From Myxococcota bacterium (GTDB taxonomy: Bacteria; Myxococcota_A; UBA796): 64,000 nt of DNA. The stretch lies in NCBI GenBank assembly GCA_029251165.1, contig JAQXDW010000074.1, positions 248,001 through 312,000 of the forward strand, in the 5' to 3' direction. The notes beneath the pieces are model-generated. The model saw only the letters and a program-made list of their open reading frames with translations. It was not told where the DNA came from and did not search any database. A program made the translations under genes and the position numbers. Below, piece by piece: positions 6,765 through 22,494 of this stretch (position 1 is the stretch's first letter; each line of letters opens with the position of its first letter).

Positions 6765-8274
6765 CGGTCGGGGGGCGGCCGACGCCCCAGACCACTCCCG
6801 CGCAGCCGAGGATGCCCAGGGGCAGCAGGATGAACCAGGGCGCACCGAGGCCGGCCGGAAGGGTGCCCATCAGGACCGCGATGATGCCCACCACGAGTGC
6901 GTAGGGCATCTGGGTCTTGACGTGCGCGTCGTGATCGCAGCCCGTTCCGGTTGAGGAGAGGACGGTGGTGTCTGAGATCGGCGAGCAGTGATCGCCCCAG
7001 ACTGCCCCCGACAGCACGCTGGCAGAAGTCGCGAGGGCGATGACCCCCGGGGGGCTCTCCATGCCCATCGCCATCGGTAGTGCCAGCGGCATCAGCACGG
7101 TCATGGTTCCAAACGAGGTTCCAGTGGCGAACGCGATCGCAGCGGCGAGGATGAAGGTGATCGAGGGCAGGGACCACGCCGGGATGCGCTCTCCCATTGC
7201 CCCGAGCAGGAAGTCTGCTGCGCCGAGGTCTCCGATCGCGCTGCCCAGCGCCCAGGCCAGCATCAGCACCGCCAGCGCCTCGAACAGCTCGGTCATGCCG
7301 GAGATGAGCGCGGTGTTGGTCTCTGACATCGTCAGGCGGCGGCTGCCGACCGCCAGCAAGACGCTCAGCAGCAGCGAGACCACCGAGCCATGCAGCATGG
7401 CGTCGTAGCCATCGGCGGCTCCGATGACCTCAAACAGTGCCGCCCCTGCTGGTGCTGCTGCGCTGCCCTGGGTCCACAGCGACAGGCCGGTGACGACCAC
7501 CAGCGCAGCGATGGGGAGGATGGCGAGGAGGGCCTGTCGCGCGGGCGGTGCGGGCGGGGCGACCACCTCGGGGCGCGCGAGGGTTCGAGACTCTGCGGCC
7601 GCCATCGGGCCGAAGTCTCTCCCGGAGAGGGCGATGAAGAAGCCAAATGCGAGCGCGAGCAGGGGGTAGAACCGGTAGGGCAGTCCCTCCAGGAAGAAGG
7701 CGTAGGCGTTGATCTCCAGCCCGGCGTTTGTGAACGCATCATCCATCAGGCCGACCTCGAAGCCGACCCAGGTGCTGATCAGCGCGACCGTTGCGACCGG
7801 CGCTGCAGTCGAGTCGACGAGGTAGGCGAGCTTCTCACGGGAGATGCGCAGCCGATCGGCGACCGGCCGCATCGACGAGCCGACAACCAGGCAATTGGCG
7901 TAGTCGTCGAAGAACACCACCTGACCCGCCGCCCAGGTCGCGACCATGCCGCTTCGTCGGGTGGTGGCGTGTCGGGTGATGAGCGAGACGAGCGCCTCGG
8001 TGCCGCCGCTCCGGCTGCTGACGGCGATGGTCGCTGCGACGAGCAGCGAGAACAGGGTGACCTTCATGTGGTCCCGATCCGCCAGGGCATCCAGCAGCCA
8101 GGGATCGACGGTGTGCAGGAGGGCTGCCCACGGGGTGCCGCCGTGGACCAGCAGCGCAGCAGCGAGCAGTCCGCTGAACAGCGACAGCAGCACCTGCCGG
8201 GTGAGCAGGGCGAGGCCGATGGCGACCACGATGGGCAGTAGGGAGAGCAGTCCGGGTTCCATGACCTGAATCAT
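6697..8274 (-). CDS. NhaC-family Na+/H+ antiporter
   Basis: The 525-residue membrane protein matches NhaC/arginine-ornithine antiporter-like carriers. 'FFDDYANCLVVGSSMRPV' sits in the first half, and the strongly conserved 'GAVWGDHCSPISDTTVLSS' is followed by 'HVKTQMPYA' near the C-terminus. It likely exchanges Na+ (or an organic ion) for protons across the inner membrane. The start may be ATG 8274 or ATG 8262; neither has a strong Shine-Dalgarno. The C-terminal 26 residues are Pro/Ser/Thr rich and run antisense into the 3' end of the AGCS symporter gene. The lipoprotein gene upstream ends only 20 bp away, so the two may be cotranscribed. Confidence 0.9.
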   Translation of the reverse strand: MIQVMEPGLLSLLPIVVAIGLALLTRQVLLSLFSGLLAAALLVHGGTPWAALLHTVDPWLLDALADRDHMKVTLFSLLVAATIAVSSRSGGTEALVSLITRHATTRRSGMVATWAAGQVVFFDDYANCLVVGSSMRPVADRLRISREKLAYLVDSTAAPVATVALISTWVGFEVGLMDDAFTNAGLEINAYAFFLEGLPYRFYPLLALAFGFFIALSGRDFGPMAAAESRTLARPEVVAPPAPPARQALLAILPIAALVVVTGLSLWTQGSAAAPAGAALFEVIGAADGYDAMLHGSVVSLLLSVLLAVGSRRLTMSETNTALISGMTELFEALAVLMLAWALGSAIGDLGAADFLLGAMGERIPAWSLPSITFILAAAIAFATGTSFGTMTVLMPLALPMAMGMESPPGVIALATSASVLSGAVWGDHCSPISDTTVLSSTGTGCDHDAHVKTQMPYALVVGIIAVLMGTLPAGLGAPWFILLPLGILGCAGVVWGVGRPPTATSTPPASSRSDTGPSSHPAQP

Positions 8275-8294
8275 AGATCACTGCTGCGGGCGGC

Positions 8295-9260
8295 TTACTC
8301 CAGCGGATCGGTGCGCATCTTCTCCAGCAGTCCTGAGGAGCAGTCTGCCTCGTGCGCTCGCCCCAGCCCGCCGCAGAAGGGCTGATCTGCCCAGATGCGC
8401 TCTCCGGTCATCCCGAATTCGGCGAGGTCGTCTGCCAGCGGGTGGGCTTCCTCTCCTGCGTTGAGCGCATGCGCTCCCAGGACACTGTAGCGAGCCTTGT
8501 CGGAGACCCCGTCTGGTGCGCAGTCTTCCTCCAGGCAGGGAATGATGCTGACTTCCTCGCAGTGCTCGGTGGAAGCGTAGGTGGCGTGCTTGCCCTCAGA
8601 GGCGTAGACCAGCCAGCGCGGCTCGCCGGTCGTGGGGTCTGTGGTGGTCTCCATCTGGCGGATGTCTTCACCGGCATAGAGGGTGCTCTGGTCGTTCAGC
8701 TCGCCCTCGTGTGCGGCGGTGTAGGCCTCTGTGACCCATGCGGAGCCGCTGTGGAGGGTGAGGGTGAGGGCGACCCGCTCGCTGTCTCCAGGGTGGGCCG
8801 TCAGCCCGCAGCGTCCGTAGTCTTCGCTGTAAGCCAGCACGATCATGACCCGGACCTCTTCCGCGGTGATCGGCCAGATCCGCGCGACGTGGATGAGCAG
8901 GCCGCCAGGGTCCACCAGCAACGGCTCGTCCTCGTCCAGCATCACCAGCGGACGCAGTCGCTCCAGGACGACGCCCTCCCAGGCATCGACCAGGCCGTCG
9001 CTGTCCAGATCGGCGCAGGGGGCATCTCGGAGGAGGGCGCAGTCTCCTGGGGCTGGCGGGAGGTTGGTGTAGAGCTGCAGCCCGGGGCTCGTGTCTTCTG
9101 TCCAGGCCTCCAGCATGAACGGATCCCGAGTGTCCTCCGGCTCGCTGGTGTCCGCTCCGTGCTCCTCAGCGTCTGCGCTGGTGTCTGCGGTCTGTGGGGA
9201 CTCTGCGGGGACGCCAGTGTCCGCTGGGGTGGACTGACAAGAGAGCAAGAACAGCAGCAT
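8295..9260 (-). CDS. Lipoprotein with Vps62/DUF946-like domain
   Basis: The 321-residue product begins MLLFLLSC, a very short lipoprotein signal (lipobox LLSC, Cys8). An Asp/Glu/Thr-rich linker of about 40 residues follows, so it is probably anchored in the outer membrane. An EF-hand-like 'DLDSDGLVDAWE' comes next. The rest resembles the Vps62 (PF06101) fold: 'HPGDSERVALTLTL' corresponds to the HxGDxE element, and 'YASEGKHATYAS' to the SxGxHAxY element. Several Cys pairs suggest disulfides. Function is unknown; Vps62-like proteins in bacteria are uncharacterised. It lies upstream of the nhaC-type gene on the same strand. The assignment rests on motif resemblance only. Confidence 0.7.
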   Translation of the reverse strand: MLLFLLSCQSTPADTGVPAESPQTADTSADAEEHGADTSEPEDTRDPFMLEAWTEDTSPGLQLYTNLPPAPGDCALLRDAPCADLDSDGLVDAWEGVVLERLRPLVMLDEDEPLLVDPGGLLIHVARIWPITAEEVRVMIVLAYSEDYGRCGLTAHPGDSERVALTLTLHSGSAWVTEAYTAAHEGELNDQSTLYAGEDIRQMETTTDPTTGEPRWLVYASEGKHATYASTEHCEEVSIIPCLEEDCAPDGVSDKARYSVLGAHALNAGEEAHPLADDLAEFGMTGERIWADQPFCGGLGRAHEADCSSGLLEKMRTDPLE

Positions 9261-14112: not shown

Positions 14113-15738
14113 ATGCCTGAGAGTGCCAGTACAGCACCCAGTCCCCGGTCGAGCAGGCACACTGGTCGGGTCTTGGCCGGACGCTACGCCCTCGGAGAGC
14201 GGCTCGGTGAGGGTGCTGCGGCGGAAGTCTACGCCGCTGTGGATCAGACCCTGGAGATCCCCCGGGCGGTCAAGCTGCTCGCTGGTGGTGGTGGGGCGCG
14301 AAAGCGACTCCGAGACCGGCTGAAGGCGGAGGCAAGGGGCATGGCTCAGCTCGACCACCCCAACATCCTGCCGATCTACGACGTGGGTGCAGAAGGGGCG
14401 CTGGACTATGTGGTCATGAAGCTGGCCGCCGGCGGCAGCCTCCAGGATCAACTCAGCAGTCAAGAAGGACTGCCCCCAGATCGCGCCTGTGGGTTCGTCG
14501 TGCAGCTGCTCTCGGCACTCGATGCGGCGCACTCTGCTGGAATCGTCCACCGCGACGTCAAGCCTCAGAACATTCTCCTCGATGGCGGCGGGCATGTCCT
14601 CTTGTCTGACTTCGGCATCGCGCTGTGGCAGCAGAACCGGTCGACTCAGACCGGGATGGCGATGGGCTCGCTTCCCTACATGGCCCCTGAGCAGCGTCTG
14701 GATGCCAGCCGAGTGGGGCCCGCTGCGGACCTCTACGCGGCCGGTGCGACCCTCTACCACCTCCTGACCTCGGCCAACCCGGTCGATCTGTTTGCTTCCC
14801 CCGACTTCTCACCGCGCTGGGAGGAGGTGCCCCTCCCGCTGCGGCCGTTCATTCGCCGCGCCACCAGCTACGAGGTCTCTGACCGGTTCCCGGATGCTGC
14901 GGTGATGGCACAGGCGCTCCTGGCAGCAATGCCGGACGTCGTCGCGGTGATTCGAGCGCCTGTGCCCTCCGCTGTCTCGGAGAACAGCGCGTGGTCGGCA
15001 CCGACCATCACGGCAGTCGGCCTGCTACTCGGCGAGGAGCCCACAGCCCTCCGGGTCGACTCCTGGGTCCGCTCGATGGCTCCCCCGCCCACCATGCCGC
15101 TGCTCATGCAGCCGGAGGGCTTCCATCCCAGCCGAACGGTCGCTGCGATCTTGCTGCTCCTGGTCAGCGGGCTGAGCACCTTCTTTGCCTGGCCCGAGCT
15201 TCTTGAGGTGCCTCCAGAGAGAGCCGAGGTGGTGGCTGAGGGGCTCCTGAAGCCCGAGGTACTCTCAGCGCCTGAGGGGCTGCTGGAGGCGGTTGGAGTC
15301 ATCACAGAGCAGGATGACGCCGAGCTCTTGGAGCCGACGCCGCGTCCGGTCAGCACTCGCTCCGCTCCTCCGCTGGCTCCAGACATCCCAGCGGAGATCT
15401 CGCTGCCGCTGCCGGACACCATCCAGCCGGTGATCGCCGGCATCTGGGTCGGAGATGTCAACACAATCCCAAAGGTGGTCAAGATCCAGTCCAGCGGTGG
15501 GGACATCTGGAGCCTGTGGCGCTCTGACACTGGCGGAGAGCAGGCCCCGACGGTCTCGGTGGGTGACTTTGATCCATCGACCGGCCGCCTCAGCCTTCAG
15601 GAGCAGGACGGCGTCGAGCAGCAGGGGCGATACGAATTTACCTTAGACAAGAACGGGGATCTCGTCGGTCGGCGCTTCATGGGCTCTACTGGACGGTCCT
15701 TCCATCGGGTCGTCCTACAGCGCGCGAGGAGAGAGTGA
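14113..15738 (+). CDS. Transmembrane Ser/Thr protein kinase
   Basis: The 541-residue kinase has an intact catalytic core: G-loop 'GEGAAAEV' (32-39), K54, HRD 146-148 followed by K150 and N153, DFG 166-168, and 'MAPEQRLD'. A hydrophobic helix near 341-360 ('VAAILLLLVSGLSTFFAW') should span the inner membrane. That leaves a C-terminal extracytoplasmic part of about 180 residues: a Pro/Glu-rich linker and then a compact beta-rich domain ending 'RFMGSTGRSFHRVVLQ'. This is the PknB-like layout of an envelope sensor. It heads a cluster with a barrel/OmpA-like protein (4-nt overlap), a LysM-FecR protein and an FHA protein, the usual reader of phospho-Thr. The ligand is unknown. Confidence 0.92.
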   Translation: MPESASTAPSPRSSRHTGRVLAGRYALGERLGEGAAAEVYAAVDQTLEIPRAVKLLAGGGGARKRLRDRLKAEARGMAQLDHPNILPIYDVGAEGALDYVVMKLAAGGSLQDQLSSQEGLPPDRACGFVVQLLSALDAAHSAGIVHRDVKPQNILLDGGGHVLLSDFGIALWQQNRSTQTGMAMGSLPYMAPEQRLDASRVGPAADLYAAGATLYHLLTSANPVDLFASPDFSPRWEEVPLPLRPFIRRATSYEVSDRFPDAAVMAQALLAAMPDVVAVIRAPVPSAVSENSAWSAPTITAVGLLLGEEPTALRVDSWVRSMAPPPTMPLLMQPEGFHPSRTVAAILLLLVSGLSTFFAWPELLEVPPERAEVVAEGLLKPEVLSAPEGLLEAVGVITEQDDAELLEPTPRPVSTRSAPPLAPDIPAEISLPLPDTIQPVIAGIWVGDVNTIPKVVKIQSSGGDIWSLWRSDTGGEQAPTVSVGDFDPSTGRLSLQEQDGVEQQGRYEFTLDKNGDLVGRRFMGSTGRSFHRVVLQRARRE

Positions 15739-16931
15739 TCCTCCTGCTGACCATGGCGGCGCAGGCCGGCGGGCTTGTGACCTCTGCTGGTGGAGCCGCC
15801 ACTCTGGGAAGTCAGGAGGGCCCAGGCCTGGAGGTGCGCTTCGGACGTTTCTTCTCGGAGACTCTTCAGGTGGAGCTCGAGGGCGGTGTCTACCCTGGCG
15901 GAGTGCTCCTCTCACGGGGAAACCTGCAGATCACCAGCGCACGAGCATCGGTGGTTCGTCCGACCTTCGGTGGAGGCGGCGGCCTGCTCATCTCAGACAC
16001 CATCGTCCCGCTCGCCCATATCGGTCCGGGACTCACCGTTGGGCTCTCTGAGCGCCTCGCGCTCCATGCGGACGCTCGCTACCTCCTGAAGCTTGGGGCG
16101 GGAACGATGGCAGAGCAATCGGCAGGAGAGCTGACCGTCGGTCTGACCTGGCGCTGGCTGCGCGCGGAGCCTCCAGAGCTCGTCCCAGCGGCCGAGGTCG
16201 CAGTGACTCCGGTGGTCTCTCTCAGGGTCCAGCCACCACATGCGCGAGTCTGGATGCCCCCTCCGGAGAACGCGTGGCTGTCGGTTTCGGACTTCGAGCG
16301 GGTGGGCCTCCGCGTTGAGCCTGGAGTGCGGCTGCGGGTCGCTGCTGACGGCTACCTGCCCACAGAGATTACCTACGAGCCTGACATGTCGGTTGTGCTG
16401 GTGGAAGCTCCGGCGCAGGGAACCCTGGTGGTCGTGAGCTCACTGGGCGACACCTTGATGTTGAACAATCATGCGCTGTCGGTCGATGCCGATGGAGTCG
16501 CGGTCATCAGCACAGAGGCCGGACGAGTGCACCTCACGGTCTCTGGTGGCGGGCGAGAAGTGGAGTACCGACCCATGATTTCCAACGGGCATGTCACCTG
16601 GCTGCGCGTGCGACCTCCGACCCCAACACGGATCACCTTTGAGCTGGACTCCAGCACGGTGTCCGAAGAAGACATCGTCCGTCTCCAGGGGCTGGCAGCA
16701 GGGCTTGGCGACTACAGCCTCATCCTCCAGGGAGCTCACTCACCGGAGGGGGCCGGCGAGCACAACCTCGAGCTTGCCCAGCAGCGGGCGGAGTCTGTCG
16801 CGTCCATCTTGCTGTCCGCTGGGGTTCCCGAGGAGCGCCTTCAATACCAGGAGCCGGCAGATACACACACCGATGTTCCACTCCACAAGCAGCGATATGT
16901 CATGATTGAGCCAACGGGAGCCACCCCATGA
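15735..16931 (+). CDS. Secreted outer-membrane barrel protein with OmpA-like C-terminal domain
   Basis: The 398-residue protein starts at a GTG that overlaps the kinase stop (GTGA). The signal peptide is tiny, MILLLTMAAQA, with no Lys/Arg. Residues about 15-150 alternate as in a small outer-membrane barrel ('LEVRFGRFFSETLQVELEGG', 'GELTVGLTWRWLR'). A middle region resembles PEGA-type beta modules ('VRVAADGYLPTEITYE'-like). The last 110 residues resemble an OmpA domain: 'ITFELDSSTVSEEDIVRLQG', 'LQGAHSPEGAGEHNLELAQQ', 'RAESVASILLSAGV'. The canonical peptidoglycan-binding NxxLSxxRA is altered to NLELAQQRA. It may link the outer membrane or cell wall to the kinase. No experimental relative is recognised. 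Confidence 0.72.
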   Translation: MILLLTMAAQAGGLVTSAGGAATLGSQEGPGLEVRFGRFFSETLQVELEGGVYPGGVLLSRGNLQITSARASVVRPTFGGGGGLLISDTIVPLAHIGPGLTVGLSERLALHADARYLLKLGAGTMAEQSAGELTVGLTWRWLRAEPPELVPAAEVAVTPVVSLRVQPPHARVWMPPPENAWLSVSDFERVGLRVEPGVRLRVAADGYLPTEITYEPDMSVVLVEAPAQGTLVVVSSLGDTLMLNNHALSVDADGVAVISTEAGRVHLTVSGGGREVEYRPMISNGHVTWLRVRPPTPTRITFELDSSTVSEEDIVRLQGLAAGLGDYSLILQGAHSPEGAGEHNLELAQQRAESVASILLSAGVPEERLQYQEPADTHTDVPLHKQRYVMIEPTGATP

Positions 16932-17926
16932 TTGCATTACTGATGTCCATCAGCGCTTCTGCCAGCGGCCTGAAGGTTGTTCGCACTGGGGACTCTGTGG
17001 AGTCCATCGCTGATGCCCTCGGTGATCCGACCCTCGCGCCCGTTCTTCGTCAGCTCAACGCGCTCGACAGCATCCAGCAGCCCGACATCGGAGATGTCTT
17101 GATCCTCCCGACGTTGGAGGGACAGGTTGAGCTGAGCGGAGTCTTGCTGTCGCTGTGGGGGCACGGTGAGCTGATTCCCGCTGGCGGGATACCTGCCGCA
17201 TTGACGGAGGGCATGCACCTCCCGGTCGGCAGCGTGGTCTGTACCGATACCGACAGCTATGCCACCATCCAGCTCGCGGTCTCCAACGATCAGCACGACG
17301 AGATCACCCTCCTCGGGAGCTCTTGCATCACCCTGGAGTCTGTGAGCATGCGCCAGGCCAGCAGACGCTCTGTTGTCTCCCTGACCCGAGGCGGACTTAC
17401 CATCCGCTCTGCGGACGCTGCTGGGGCGGTGACGGTGCTCACGGAGAGCGGTCTGGCGACCGGAGACGGGGGGGGCTTCAGGGTCTCACTTGAGGACACC
17501 GCGGTCCGTGCAGAGGCTCTCTATGCGGGTGTTACCGTGTTTGGTGCTGGCGAAGAGGTTGCTGTTGATGCGGGCTTTGGCAGCCGGGTCATCACTGGAG
17601 AGCCTCCCTCCGTTCCCTCCCGCTTGCTCGCCCCAGAGGCCCTGCTGACTCCAGAAGATGGGGCGCCTCTCCGGCGGCCAGACTTCACCTGGACACCGGT
17701 GGCACGGGCCCCGATGTACCTCATTGAGGTGGCGACAAATCCAGAGTTTAGCCAGATCATCCGTGCGGTTGAGGTCGTCCAGCCGGAGTGGAGTCCGGAA
17801 GTGCTCTTGTCTCCATACCGCGTCGAGGGGCTCTGGTGGCGAGTCTCTCCGATTGACCGGATCGGATTTGTCGGACAGTCAAGCGTTGCATATAAACTGT
17901 CTTTTCCGGTGGGTACAGGTCTGTAG
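16928..17926 (+). CDS. Secreted LysM plus FecR-domain protein
   Basis: The 332-residue protein overlaps the previous gene by 4 nt (ATGA). The signal MIALLMSISASA is short and uncharged. A LysM-like module ('VVRTGDSVESIADALGD', then 'LNALDSIQQPDIGDVLILP') should bind peptidoglycan. A FecR-like beta domain follows: 'LPVGSVVCTDTDSYATIQL', 'SVVSLTRGGLTIRS', 'VTVLTESGLATGDGGGFRVS', the pattern seen in FecR and related envelope proteins. The C-terminal part ('RRPDFTWTPVARAPMYLIEV') resembles a fibronectin-like beta sandwich. LysM-FecR proteins are common in delta-type bacteria but mostly uncharacterised. It most likely works with its coupled neighbours in the periplasm. Confidence 0.75.
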   Translation: MIALLMSISASASGLKVVRTGDSVESIADALGDPTLAPVLRQLNALDSIQQPDIGDVLILPTLEGQVELSGVLLSLWGHGELIPAGGIPAALTEGMHLPVGSVVCTDTDSYATIQLAVSNDQHDEITLLGSSCITLESVSMRQASRRSVVSLTRGGLTIRSADAAGAVTVLTESGLATGDGGGFRVSLEDTAVRAEALYAGVTVFGAGEEVAVDAGFGSRVITGEPPSVPSRLLAPEALLTPEDGAPLRRPDFTWTPVARAPMYLIEVATNPEFSQIIRAVEVVQPEWSPEVLLSPYRVEGLWWRVSPIDRIGFVGQSSVAYKLSFPVGTGL

Positions 17927-17984
17927 TACCGTCTGAACGGTCCGTCATGCTATGAACATACCCGACTTAGAGGGAGTGTTACGG

Positions 17985-18959
17985 ATGGACAGCAAGACCG
18001 CAACGGCTGTGTTGCACGTCATGCAAGATGGAATGGTGATCCATACATTCCCCACTCCAATCAGCGAGCCGCTTCTTATCGGACGGGCTCCTGGCAATGG
18101 TCTGGTGCTGACCTCTGAGCACATCTCTTGGCATCACGCGATGCTCTGGGTTGAGGGCGCGCGTCTCTGGATCAAAGACATCGGCAGCAGCAACGGAACC
18201 TTCATCGATGACAAGCGAGTCCTCAAGCCCTCCCCGGTTGAGCCGAGCAGCACCATCCGCCTTGGAACTGACGTCACAATTCGGTTTCAGGACAACAAGC
18301 GTGTCGCGCTTCACGACTTGTTCATTGAAGAGGTCGACAAGCCTGGTGTCACACCGATCGCCTCCAACCGACTGTACATCGGGACCGCCGAAGACTCTGA
18401 TGTGATGCTTGACAGCGGACCCGAGCGGGCCGCGACCCTCCAGATCCACAGCGACGGTGAGATCTGGATCGGCACCAGCGATGGCGAGCATGCCCTCGAG
18501 ATCGGAGAGCACTTTGAGGTCGCCGGCCGACAGTTTCGAATCTGTCAGAAAGTCCAGCGTACACCGACTATGCTCGCCATGGACATGCGGTACCCCTACC
18601 ACCTCAGCGTGAATCTTCAGGGTGCCATTGGCCCGAGGGCGCAGCTGCGAGACCTGAAGACCGGCAAGGTCTTTGAGATCCAGTCGAACAATCGGGTGGT
18701 TCTCCTGTACATCCTCGCGCGCCGTCTGGCCGAAGATCGGGAGAGCACCCAGAGCAAAGATGCCGAGGGCTGGTGTAAAGATGAGGAGGTCTCCTCAGGC
18801 ATCTGGGGGCGGAACTGGCAGGAGCACTCCGCAGGACACCTCCATGTCCTCGTCCATCGGCTGCGCAATCAGATTAAGACGGGTGGCTTCGATCCTTGGT
18901 TTATTGAAAAGAAGCGCCGACATGTTCGGCTGTGTCTGCCCGAAGTCGAGGTCCTCTGA
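17985..18959 (+). CDS. FHA-domain protein with C-terminal winged-helix-like domain
   Basis: The 324-residue cytoplasmic protein has a classic FHA domain (about 8-100): 'LLIGRAPGNGLVLTSEHISW', then 'HHAML' and 'IGSSNGTFIDD', which carry the phospho-Thr-binding Arg, Ser, His and Asn. A second, degenerate FHA-like segment follows ('RLYIGTAEDSDVMLDSGPER'). The C-terminal region ('LHVLVHRLRNQIKTGGFDPW', 'FIEKKRRHVRL') resembles the winged helix of OmpR/PhoB-type regulators. The protein could therefore read a phosphorylated partner and bind DNA. ATG 17985 is preferred over ATG 17952 because 'gggag' lies 8 nt upstream. It is the last gene of the kinase cluster and precedes a hairpin terminator. Confidence 0.82.
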   Translation: MDSKTATAVLHVMQDGMVIHTFPTPISEPLLIGRAPGNGLVLTSEHISWHHAMLWVEGARLWIKDIGSSNGTFIDDKRVLKPSPVEPSSTIRLGTDVTIRFQDNKRVALHDLFIEEVDKPGVTPIASNRLYIGTAEDSDVMLDSGPERAATLQIHSDGEIWIGTSDGEHALEIGEHFEVAGRQFRICQKVQRTPTMLAMDMRYPYHLSVNLQGAIGPRAQLRDLKTGKVFEIQSNNRVVLLYILARRLAEDRESTQSKDAEGWCKDEEVSSGIWGRNWQEHSAGHLHVLVHRLRNQIKTGGFDPWFIEKKRRHVRLCLPEVEVL

Positions 18960-20520: not shown

Positions 20521-22494
20521 TCAATTCAGGGCAAAGAGCAGAATGATGAGCAGGATCATGATGACCGCAGCACCACCGATGAACATCACGTAGGCATCTC
20601 CGCGAAGGAGATCGAGGAAGCGCGTGATGGCCTCTCCGATCGGTCCGCTGTCGGCCTCGTAGTAGTCGTCGGTATCATCGTCTGGTGTCAGGGGAGGATA
20701 GAGGTCCTCACCGTCATCGCTGATGCCTGGAGTCGACCGTGGAACCGGAATCTCAGGGGACCAGCTGGCATTGTTCTCGATGACGGGCTGATCGTATTGC
20801 TCTGAGGAAGACTTCGGGCTGTTGCCCCGAGCGTCCGGCATGCGTCGAGGACTCCCCTCTGGCATCGTCATCGCGGCAGCTTTGGAGTCGGTCTGTCTTG
20901 CGGACCCGTCTGCGTTGGCGCTGTGCCCGGTGATGACGGGCACGACCCTGCGGGGGGTGGAGCTGCCACCAGTGACCGGGTCGACGCCCGGTGTCGCGAC
21001 CCGCGGCGGGGGCTGACGGACCGGCGGCGGGGGGATGCTGAGGGTCGGGCCTGCGCTTCCCGGAATGCCTGCGCTTCCGGGAGTGCCTGCGTTCTCGGGG
21101 GTAGGGGTCGTCGGCGCTGGCATCTGAATGCCGGGTGCTGTCCGATTCTGGGTGACCGGATCGGCCTCTGGGCGCTCCAGAGGAATGGGCTGGCGGGTCG
21201 GCTTGGGGCGGGGGGGCACGTAGCCGGGCGCAGCACGACGCTCAAAGCGGCCTTCTGCGACCTGAGGTTCAGCACTCGACTCGCGGATCTTGAACGCGAC
21301 CCGGATGGTGTAGCTGCCCGGTGCCAGATCTGAGAGCCGGAAGCCGAACCGGTGGCGACCGCTGGGGTGGCGATCGACGGTGTAGGCGCAGTTGAGGTCC
21401 CGGATGCGCTCGTCCTTCTCTCGGTCGAACACGGCGAGGCCGCAGGCGATCTCTTCGTGGGTCTCCACGCCGGCAGAGCAGCCGATGGTGCAGGAGAAGA
21501 CGACGTCCTCGTCGGTGGTGAACGAGTCGGACCCCGGGGGGCGATCGAGGAGGATCTTGCCGACGTGCTCGACGGATGGGTTCGTCAGCGCGCGGAGGTT
21601 CTCCAGACGGCTGTGGAACTCGGCGATGTCGAGAAACCGGTAAGGCGGTGAGGGGGCGGTCTTCTCTGAGAGCGCGCGGTTGAGGAACGCGGCCATCCGA
21701 TCGGAGAGCCGTGTGTGGAAGCGGGGATTTGCCCCCTCATCCTTCAGGCGGTTGTGGACCCGATCCTTGAGCGCGACGAGGCTTGCTTTGTCCAGACCGG
21801 AGAGCGGAGTCTCGGGAATCCGTGCGGGAACCTCACCGCTCGCGAGGGTGCCCCAGTAGAGGACCATTCCGACGGCGTAGGTGTCTGCTGCCGAGCCGGT
21901 CGCCACACCACCGCTGCGAACCTCTGGAGGGAGGTAGGCGAGGGCTGGACGGGCCTTGGACCCTGCTGCTGCGCGCAGATCTTGGATGTGCTTTGCGGCG
22001 AGCGGGGTGAGGGGATCCGACAACATGATCCGACCCTGCTCCGTCATCAAGACGTTGGTCGGTGTGAGGTTGCCGTGTCCCGAGAGCAGCCGGCCGAGAT
22101 CGCGAACGGCCTCGGCGAGATCCTGACAGAGATCCAGCAGCTCATCCATCGAGTAGCCGCCAGATAGGCGCCGCTCGAGGTTGAGGGGCTGGCGAGGCAT
22201 CAGCAGCCCCGGAGTCCCGTCGGTGGTGGTGATCAGGCTGTCGATGGGCAGGAGGAACGGGAGCCGATTGTCGGTCAGTAGACGCGCCTGCTCAAGCAGG
22301 ATTTCCTGGCACAGCGGCGCGAGGTGCGATGCGTGCTCTGGGAGGTCATCCTGACTCAGCGGGACCTTGAGCGCCCACTCTGGGCCATGCTCTTCCCGTA
22401 CTGAGTAAGTCTTGCCCCAGAGGCCACGACCGAGAATCTGACCGATCTGGAAGGCGCGTCCCTGATCGTCCCGGACAATGTCGCCGGTTTTCAT
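20521..22494 (-). CDS. Membrane-anchored pseudokinase (degenerate Ser/Thr kinase)
   Basis: The 657-residue protein has a Hanks-type fold in residues about 12-300 ('LGRGLWGKTYSV' G-loop, K43 in 'ALKVP', 'LAYLPPEVRSG' as the APE element). The catalytic loop reads HGNLTPTN (140-147): the catalytic Asp is Asn142 and the Lys is Thr144. DFG is D160-P-L. Phosphotransfer is therefore doubtful, although ATP binding may persist. A beta domain follows (about 310-420), then a roughly 200-residue Pro/Thr-rich linker. A C-terminal helix 'YVMFIGGAAVIMILLIILLF' makes it tail-anchored, with the kinase fold in the cytoplasm. It precedes pepA by 23 bp. Partner and ligand are unknown. Confidence 0.85.
   Translation of the reverse strand: MKTGDIVRDDQGRAFQIGQILGRGLWGKTYSVREEHGPEWALKVPLSQDDLPEHASHLAPLCQEILLEQARLLTDNRLPFLLPIDSLITTTDGTPGLLMPRQPLNLERRLSGGYSMDELLDLCQDLAEAVRDLGRLLSGHGNLTPTNVLMTEQGRIMLSDPLTPLAAKHIQDLRAAAGSKARPALAYLPPEVRSGGVATGSAADTYAVGMVLYWGTLASGEVPARIPETPLSGLDKASLVALKDRVHNRLKDEGANPRFHTRLSDRMAAFLNRALSEKTAPSPPYRFLDIAEFHSRLENLRALTNPSVEHVGKILLDRPPGSDSFTTDEDVVFSCTIGCSAGVETHEEIACGLAVFDREKDERIRDLNCAYTVDRHPSGRHRFGFRLSDLAPGSYTIRVAFKIRESSAEPQVAEGRFERRAAPGYVPPRPKPTRQPIPLERPEADPVTQNRTAPGIQMPAPTTPTPENAGTPGSAGIPGSAGPTLSIPPPPVRQPPPRVATPGVDPVTGGSSTPRRVVPVITGHSANADGSARQTDSKAAAMTMPEGSPRRMPDARGNSPKSSSEQYDQPVIENNASWSPEIPVPRSTPGISDDGEDLYPPLTPDDDTDDYYEADSGPIGEAITRFLDLLRGDAYVMFIGGAAVIMILLIILLFALN

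Follow-up and report, generated by a model that had tools for sequence, protein, structure and literature searches.

A four-gene cluster in an uncultured order of Myxococcota as a candidate Ser/Thr-phosphorylation operon for envelope sensing

Related systems and the myxococcal locus

The BiofilmReg operon of Burkholderia contaminans and its relatives has been linked to biofilm formation and encodes, in the accessible part of its description, a REC-Trans_reg_C regulator, a LysM-FecR protein, a CHASE2 histidine kinase and a DUF4136 protein (PMC5192318). In the PknH/EmbR system of Mycobacterium tuberculosis (PDB 2FEZ/2FF4), the FHA domain of EmbR is required for phosphorylation by PknH, and phosphorylation boosts promoter binding, according to the available portion of the source (PMC4601284). 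In Myxococcus xanthus, MXAN_2062/2063 adjoin pmxA, and the accessible text assigns no function to either (PMC8844925). The locus described here is a cluster of four genes encoding a transmembrane Hanks-type Ser/Thr kinase (STK), an outer-membrane barrel/OmpA-like protein (OMP), a LysM-FecR-type periplasmic protein (LYS) and an FHA/winged-helix regulator. It lies on a stretch of 64,000 nucleotides (hereafter the window; positions 248001-312000 of contig C125) from the genome of a member of an uncultured order of Myxococcota (8.0 Mb, 152 contigs, 90.75% complete, 7.75% contamination). We consider it rather probable that these genes form an envelope-sensing operon based on Ser/Thr phosphorylation, which would connect the outer membrane and the cell wall to a DNA-binding regulator.

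The cluster resembles BiofilmReg in that a LysM-FecR gene with an overlapping start stands beside genes for a Trans_reg_C regulator and a membrane sensor kinase. It differs from the Burkholderia operon, as far as the accessible text describes it, since the latter has a CHASE2/PAS histidine kinase, REC instead of FHA, and DUF4136 instead of the barrel/OmpA-like protein (PMC5192318). Neither a CHASE2 histidine kinase nor a REC regulator was found in the window cluster with Pfam. With PknH/EmbR it shares a membrane Ser/Thr kinase and an OmpR-type winged helix joined to an FHA domain, whereas the available portion of the source mentions neither a LysM-FecR nor an OmpA partner for that pair (PMC4601284). 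As a SARP, EmbR begins with the winged helix and ends with FHA, with BTA between them. The window regulator starts with FHA, followed by a beta domain, and no BTA domain was found in it by Pfam or in the model. The M. xanthus genes likewise encode LysM-fibronectin and FecR-domain proteins beside a signalling gene, but that gene is c-di-GMP-related, and no kinase or FHA regulator is indicated in the accessible text (PMC8844925).

Related arrangements were also found within the phylum. OmpA-FecR neighbours recur among 19 loci of other families, which are the best-scoring FecR matches and not a random sample. Genes for OmpA, a membrane protein, a kinase and LysM-FecR are tightly ordered in L178, L185, L186 and L188. 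For L185, Pfam identified OmpA, dCache-HAMP-cyclase, Pkinase and LysM-FecR, together with a divergent REC-Trans_reg_C regulator; the cyclase identity in these operons is taken from Pfam on this locus. L178 also has a REC-winged-helix-like regulator ORF at its side; at L186 none was seen. The four operons are like the window cluster in combining OmpA, LysM-FecR and a Hanks kinase in one tightly packed unit, and differ from it in the separate dCache-HAMP-cyclase sensor, in the OmpA Asp, which is kept where readable, and in that no FHA regulator was seen. Behind another OmpA-FecR pair (L171:5450-9052), a CHASE2 histidine kinase gene stands beside one for a Hanks kinase that carries a receiver domain at its C-terminus, a possible junction of His-Asp and Ser/Thr signalling.

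By analogy, the window operon is best read as the Ser/Thr counterpart of the Burkholderia LysM-FecR/CHASE2-histidine-kinase/OmpR operon, with an EmbR/PknH-like output. Since LysM-FecR operons with other kinases or cyclases recur, it would represent the Ser/Thr edition, in which FHA replaces REC and the barrel/OmpA-like protein is an addition. No description of this gene combination was recognised in the literature covered (titles and abstract starts, with most subscription journals and preprints outside the coverage). The author of the initial annotation of the window knew of no described system with exactly this order; the combination of parts does look new, but the logic is known from other bacteria, with close parallels in BiofilmReg, EmbR/PknH and the other Myxococcota operons.

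Conservation of the gene set

The four genes, all on the + strand, fill positions 14113-18959 of the window (ORF list). ORFs, Pfam, family profiles and models agree on the identities first proposed for them, and the 4-nt overlaps reported between kinase and OMP and between OMP and LYS are real; the gap from LYS to the FHA gene is 25 nt. Pfam matches to Pkinase, OmpA and FHA were above the cut-offs in the window proteins and those to LysM, FecR and Trans_reg_C were below them (Table 1), so that family-level support was needed for the latter three labels.

Homologues of LYS scoring above 300 bits were found in 24 of the 63 genomes of the order, at 26 loci in total and in many genera. The next match inside the order reached 105 bits (locus L064, genome G036), and no match to any query gene was found at that locus. 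The best match outside the order, 110 bits, is the highest among the candidates scored in 282 genomes of the phylum; up to seven candidates were scored per genome, and weak matches may escape such a search. The DNA around all 26 loci was used for gene placement.

The order kinase-OMP-LYS is kept in 19/19 loci with enough contig. OMP stands immediately upstream of LYS in 22 of the 26, and the loci without a recognised OMP there are L055 (at a contig edge), L061, L062 and L063; in L062 its place is occupied by a 353-aa ORF that was not recognised, resembles a secreted protein and overlaps LYS by 4 nt. The kinase gene is immediately upstream of OMP in 19 of the 22, and the remaining three (L048, L059, L060) have less than 500 bases of contig left. 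At the OMP/LYS junction a 4-nt overlap was observed in 18/22 loci, a 1-nt overlap in 3/22 and a 4-nt gap in 1/22; longer overlaps that appear in L044 and L053 arise because the starts picked by the script are probably too far upstream.

An FHA gene lies within the cluster in 17/26 loci, in five placements: directly upstream of the kinase (9), divergent upstream (2), between kinase and LYS (2), downstream of LYS (3, one of them 640 nt away) and convergent downstream (1, at 843 nt). In five further loci the FHA status is cut off by a contig edge. The search for conserved synteny suggested at the outset thus had a positive outcome, while the exact order of the window is rare (3 loci) and the usual one is FHA-kinase-OMP-LYS. 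The five placements indicate that the association outlasted rearrangements, which a frozen order alone would not explain. A second kinase-OMP-LYS copy is present in the window genome (L051, G000:C6:73300-92300), with no FHA gene nearby.

The flanking genes YihA, FtsJ, LAP, MtnA and GH3, used as queries, were found at 0/26 loci. The four genes stay together as a set in changing surroundings, which is more than chance adjacency would give. That the genes are chance neighbours with no functional link is therefore scarcely credible, being contradicted by the synteny, and this explanation was rejected.

The junction data also bear on a second explanation, in which two modules stand side by side: the kinase/FHA pair would control the expression of OMP and LYS, which would be structural envelope proteins and not sensors, within an envelope homeostasis loop. 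The OMP-LYS overlap is indeed the tightest link in the cluster, OmpA-FecR pairs without a recognised kinase occur in other families (L170, L175, L176, L177), and kinase-FHA pairs exist without LysM-FecR. However, the kinase is the third constant member wherever the contig is long enough, its conserved extracytoplasmic domain would be superfluous in a purely cytoplasmic loop, and no common upstream repeat was seen. Two separate modules appear unlikely on balance, although they retain some weight.

Predicted proteins of the cluster

In the kinase, Lys54, Glu73, Asp148, Asn153 and Asp166 are conserved in every homologue with letters at these positions. They correspond to the VAIK Lys, alpha-C Glu, HRD Asp, Asn and DFG Asp, all present, and identify a Hanks fold whose active site, judged from the sequence, is intact. 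A hydrophobic segment was predicted in 21 of 22 homologues, one per protein; the homologue without it is a truncated ORF. The segment is followed by 153-242 residues that end in an alignable domain. This domain aligns in 18 homologues (L047, L061, L062 and L063 were left out of the 22), with just 15-25% identity to that of the window protein. As a possible shared phosphosite, the juxtamembrane motif PT[ILVM] was considered; it occurs in 13/21 cluster kinases, where 500 shuffles gave 3.8 on average and 9 at most, and also in 2/10 of the window genome's other kinases whose segment could be used (from 23 of 29 kinase loci that were read). The motif was picked after viewing the sequences and some kinases are near-duplicates, and it was kept as a lead and not as a site.

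The regulator carries, by sequence, an intact phospho-Thr pocket: Arg45, Ser59, His62, Asn81 and Gly82 are invariant in 32/32 homologues. The Arg, Ser, His and Asn-Gly of FHA domains are the residues that read phospho-Thr. The wide alignment of the FHA family left out L131 (start cut), L134 and L143 (wrong frame picked by the script), L139 (judged similar to L136) and a fragment, L054. Among PDB sequences EmbR is nearest to the FHA part, and the window domain matched the EmbR FHA domain with Z 16.7 and rmsd 2.0 over 98 aligned residues (VIA-align). This comparison covers FHA and bears on neither the second beta domain nor the winged helix.

In the regulator model (pLDDT 89.3, pTM 0.53), model residues 205-323 fold into strands and three helices and close with a C-terminal hairpin. 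Trans_reg_C was matched by 24/26 C-termini of the family (alignment of 26 sequences), the best at 5.4e-9, and the window C-terminus alone scored 19.3 bits, below the cut-off of 26.2. With the C-terminal profile, all 18 PDB matches at E<=1 are of the OmpR/PhoB type, led by the SaeR DNA-binding domain (1.5e-5). Both model and profiles thus point to an OmpR/PhoB-type winged helix, in line with the DNA-binding end that had been proposed for this protein. No REC receiver domain was found in the regulator with Pfam; FHA and the beta domain stand in its place. In the linker that joins the winged helix to the second beta domain, residue 206 is Thr in 30 of the 32 homologues, whereas the other linker residues (positions 187-201 of the first row of the alignment) are conserved in at most 18/32. 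The ten-residue block with Thr206 has a pLDDT of 52 in the model. Being kept in a flexible and otherwise free linker, Thr206 is a candidate phosphosite.

A database scan with the single FHA protein found no named relatives, and one with the FHA alignment gave 34 loci, many of which appear to repeat genomes already counted and are not independent evidence. A compact FHA/winged-helix paralogue in the window genome (L189, ~7895-8560; G000:C33) is a 228-aa open frame, apparently without the middle beta domain. The family also appears in records titled Bifidobacterium breve (L121) and Rhodobacterales (L098), which are probably mislabelled metagenome-assembled genomes.

In the AlphaFold2 model of OMP (pLDDT 88.4, pTM 0.51), residues 13-141 form eight long strands, and the other end of the protein is OmpA-like. 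In Foldseek the barrel matched the N-terminal barrel of OprF (4rlc) with TM 0.80 on target and rmsd 3.3 over 144 columns, and NspA with TM 0.64 on target; the C-terminal end matched Pal (4g4w) with TM 0.74. The N-terminus is accordingly predicted to be an eight-stranded outer-membrane barrel. The OmpA domain was matched in 21/21 members (alignment without the L048 fragment). A profile of 26 LYS homologues matched LysM among solved structures (4uz2, 3.4e-9). LysM was recognised in 9/26 and FecR in 5/26 individual members at E<=0.01. The C-terminus of LYS is a Trp-rich domain, and Cys105 and Cys133 are invariant in 26/26 homologues. The hydrophobic leaders at the start of OMP and LYS are unusually short (~12 residues) and lack basic residues, as do those of many homologues.

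Table 1. Genes and predicted features of the cluster (window positions; Pfam cut-offs, in bits, in brackets).
Feature	Positions	Strand	Remarks
Hanks-type Ser/Thr kinase, transmembrane (STK)	14113-15738	+	541 aa; Pkinase 131.4 bits, E 5e-38
Kinase domain	14185-14937	+	residues ~25-275; end approximate
Single transmembrane segment, predicted	15136-15189	+	residues 342-359; hydropathy script
Small extracytoplasmic C-terminal domain, predicted beta from pattern	15412-15735	+	alignable in 18 homologues
Outer-membrane barrel/OmpA-like protein (OMP)	15735-16931	+	398 aa; GTG start; OmpA 31.9 bits (27.2)
Predicted 8-stranded barrel	15771-16157	+	residues 13-141; AlphaFold2 model, pLDDT mostly >90
OmpA-like C-terminal domain without canonical Asp	16635-16928	+	OmpA 31.9 bits
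LysM-FecR-type periplasmic protein (LYS)	16928-17926	+	332 aa
LysM domain	16976-17110	+	residues 17-61; below cut-off in window protein, 18.9 bits (20.9); profile 3.4e-9 vs 4uz2
FecR-like region	17243-17521	+	residues 106-198; weak in window protein, 13.8 bits (24), below cut-off
FHA/winged-helix regulator	17952-18959	+	335 aa; second ATG at 17985
FHA domain	18075-18266	+	residues 42-105; 56.3 bits (20.7)
Second all-beta domain	18312-18545	+	residues ~121-198; model
Thr206 codon, linker threonine, candidate phosphosite	18567-18569	+	Thr in 30/32 homologues
OmpR/PhoB-type winged-helix DNA-binding domain, predicted	18597-18953	+	residues ~216-334; model, profiles; Trans_reg_C 16.4 bits (26.2) in window protein, below cut-off

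A scan for sigma-70 promoters found 0 against 0.5 expected, and the terminator-like sites (6 against 2.8 expected) include none that is interpretable. At 20521-22494 (-), 1.6 kb from the cluster, a kinase-like protein is encoded with HGN for HRD, DPL for DFG and a C-terminal hydrophobic segment; it is below the Pkinase cut-off and is a probable pseudokinase.

Proposed pathway and its meaning

The four-gene cluster is real, conserved and functionally coherent. Its gene set and their conservation, the kinase active site, the phospho-Thr pocket, the winged helix and the barrel are seen in sequence and model, and from these we infer the mechanism: where the proteins are located and what they contact, which signal is read, which residue is phosphorylated, which way the switch works and which genes it targets. 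The periplasmic sensing side would consist of the barrel/OmpA-like protein in the outer membrane and the LysM-FecR protein at the peptidoglycan. The Hanks kinase would receive input from both through its extracytoplasmic domain. The state of the envelope would set kinase activity, and the signal would cross the inner membrane through the kinase. The active kinase would phosphorylate the FHA regulator, most likely at Thr206, and the phospho-Thr that the FHA domain reads may belong to the kinase, to the linker of the same regulator molecule or to another copy of the regulator. This engagement would alter DNA binding by the winged helix.

Several observations weigh against such a pathway. No FHA gene is present in the examined flanks of 4/26 clusters (both copies in G015, L051 and the one in G033). 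FHA/winged-helix homologues are numerous in the order, often with several full-length copies per genome, and there are 92 protein-kinase matches in the 8-Mb window genome (~one per 87 kb), and therefore the linked gene need not be the partner of the kinase. In the kinase matches some bunching was seen, for example on contigs C142 and C101. The LysM part is missing or unrecognisable in some LYS members, such as L053, L057 and L060. PhoB-like direct repeats upstream of 20 clusters were not in excess (mean 5.75 vs 5.90 in shuffles), and autoregulation through such repeats was not retained as a candidate, the test being a weak one on diverged sequence.

The OmpA-like site is a further point of this kind, as its Asp is replaced by Ser or Ala in 21/21 members, with the Arg retained in all of them. 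The Asp and Arg of OmpA-like domains hold diaminopimelate. In OmpA proteins beside FecR genes outside the order, the Asp is kept in 10/10 readable cases (11 inspected). The OmpA-like domain of this order probably no longer anchors peptidoglycan in the usual way, and with the canonical Asp missing throughout, contact with peptidoglycan probably rests on LysM. Of the peptidoglycan link suggested in the initial annotation, the part through LysM is probable and that through the OmpA part is doubtful.

The number of paralogues and kinases and the clusters without a nearby FHA gene would also suit an FHA protein that serves as a hub for several kinases, or as the partner of another kinase, with adjacency reflecting co-expression only; EmbR is itself a substrate of three kinases, according to the available portion of the source (PMC4601284). 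Kinases are neighbours of the FHA gene in 17 clusters, and outside the LYS clusters a kinase lies within ~0.8 kb in 8/20 FHA loci (L130, L134, L135, L139, L140, L141, L146 and L148), with L134 and L141 being fragments of FHA-kinase-OMP clusters at the end of a contig. One of three loci in a second family within the same class also has an FHA-kinase pair (L212; none was found in L213 or L214). At about one kinase per 87 kb, the kinases beside FHA genes are far above expectation, and a hub or a foreign partner is judged improbable. The single pathway from envelope to DNA, as initially proposed, stays the best-supported reading, and it is one that we infer.

The conserved linker threonine of the regulator and the OmpA-like domain without Asp, both read from sequence alignments, are new observations of this study. 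With somewhat less than even confidence, it may be generalised that phospho-threonine 'two-component systems' exist, in which membrane Hanks kinases are each dedicated to a linked FHA/winged-helix regulator with a linker threonine as receiver site. Here they would be built on an OMP/LysM-FecR sensor cassette that drives histidine kinases or cyclases elsewhere, so that the output chemistry would be interchangeable. Few bacterial Hanks kinases are known to have a regulator of their own. The operon pairs a Hanks kinase and a LysM-FecR protein with a DNA-binding reader of phospho-Thr, so that the substrate, the residue concerned (Thr206) and an input from the periplasm would all be specified. Judging from this operon, a single cassette for envelope sensing may have been wired in turn to His-Asp, cyclic-nucleotide and Ser/Thr signalling.

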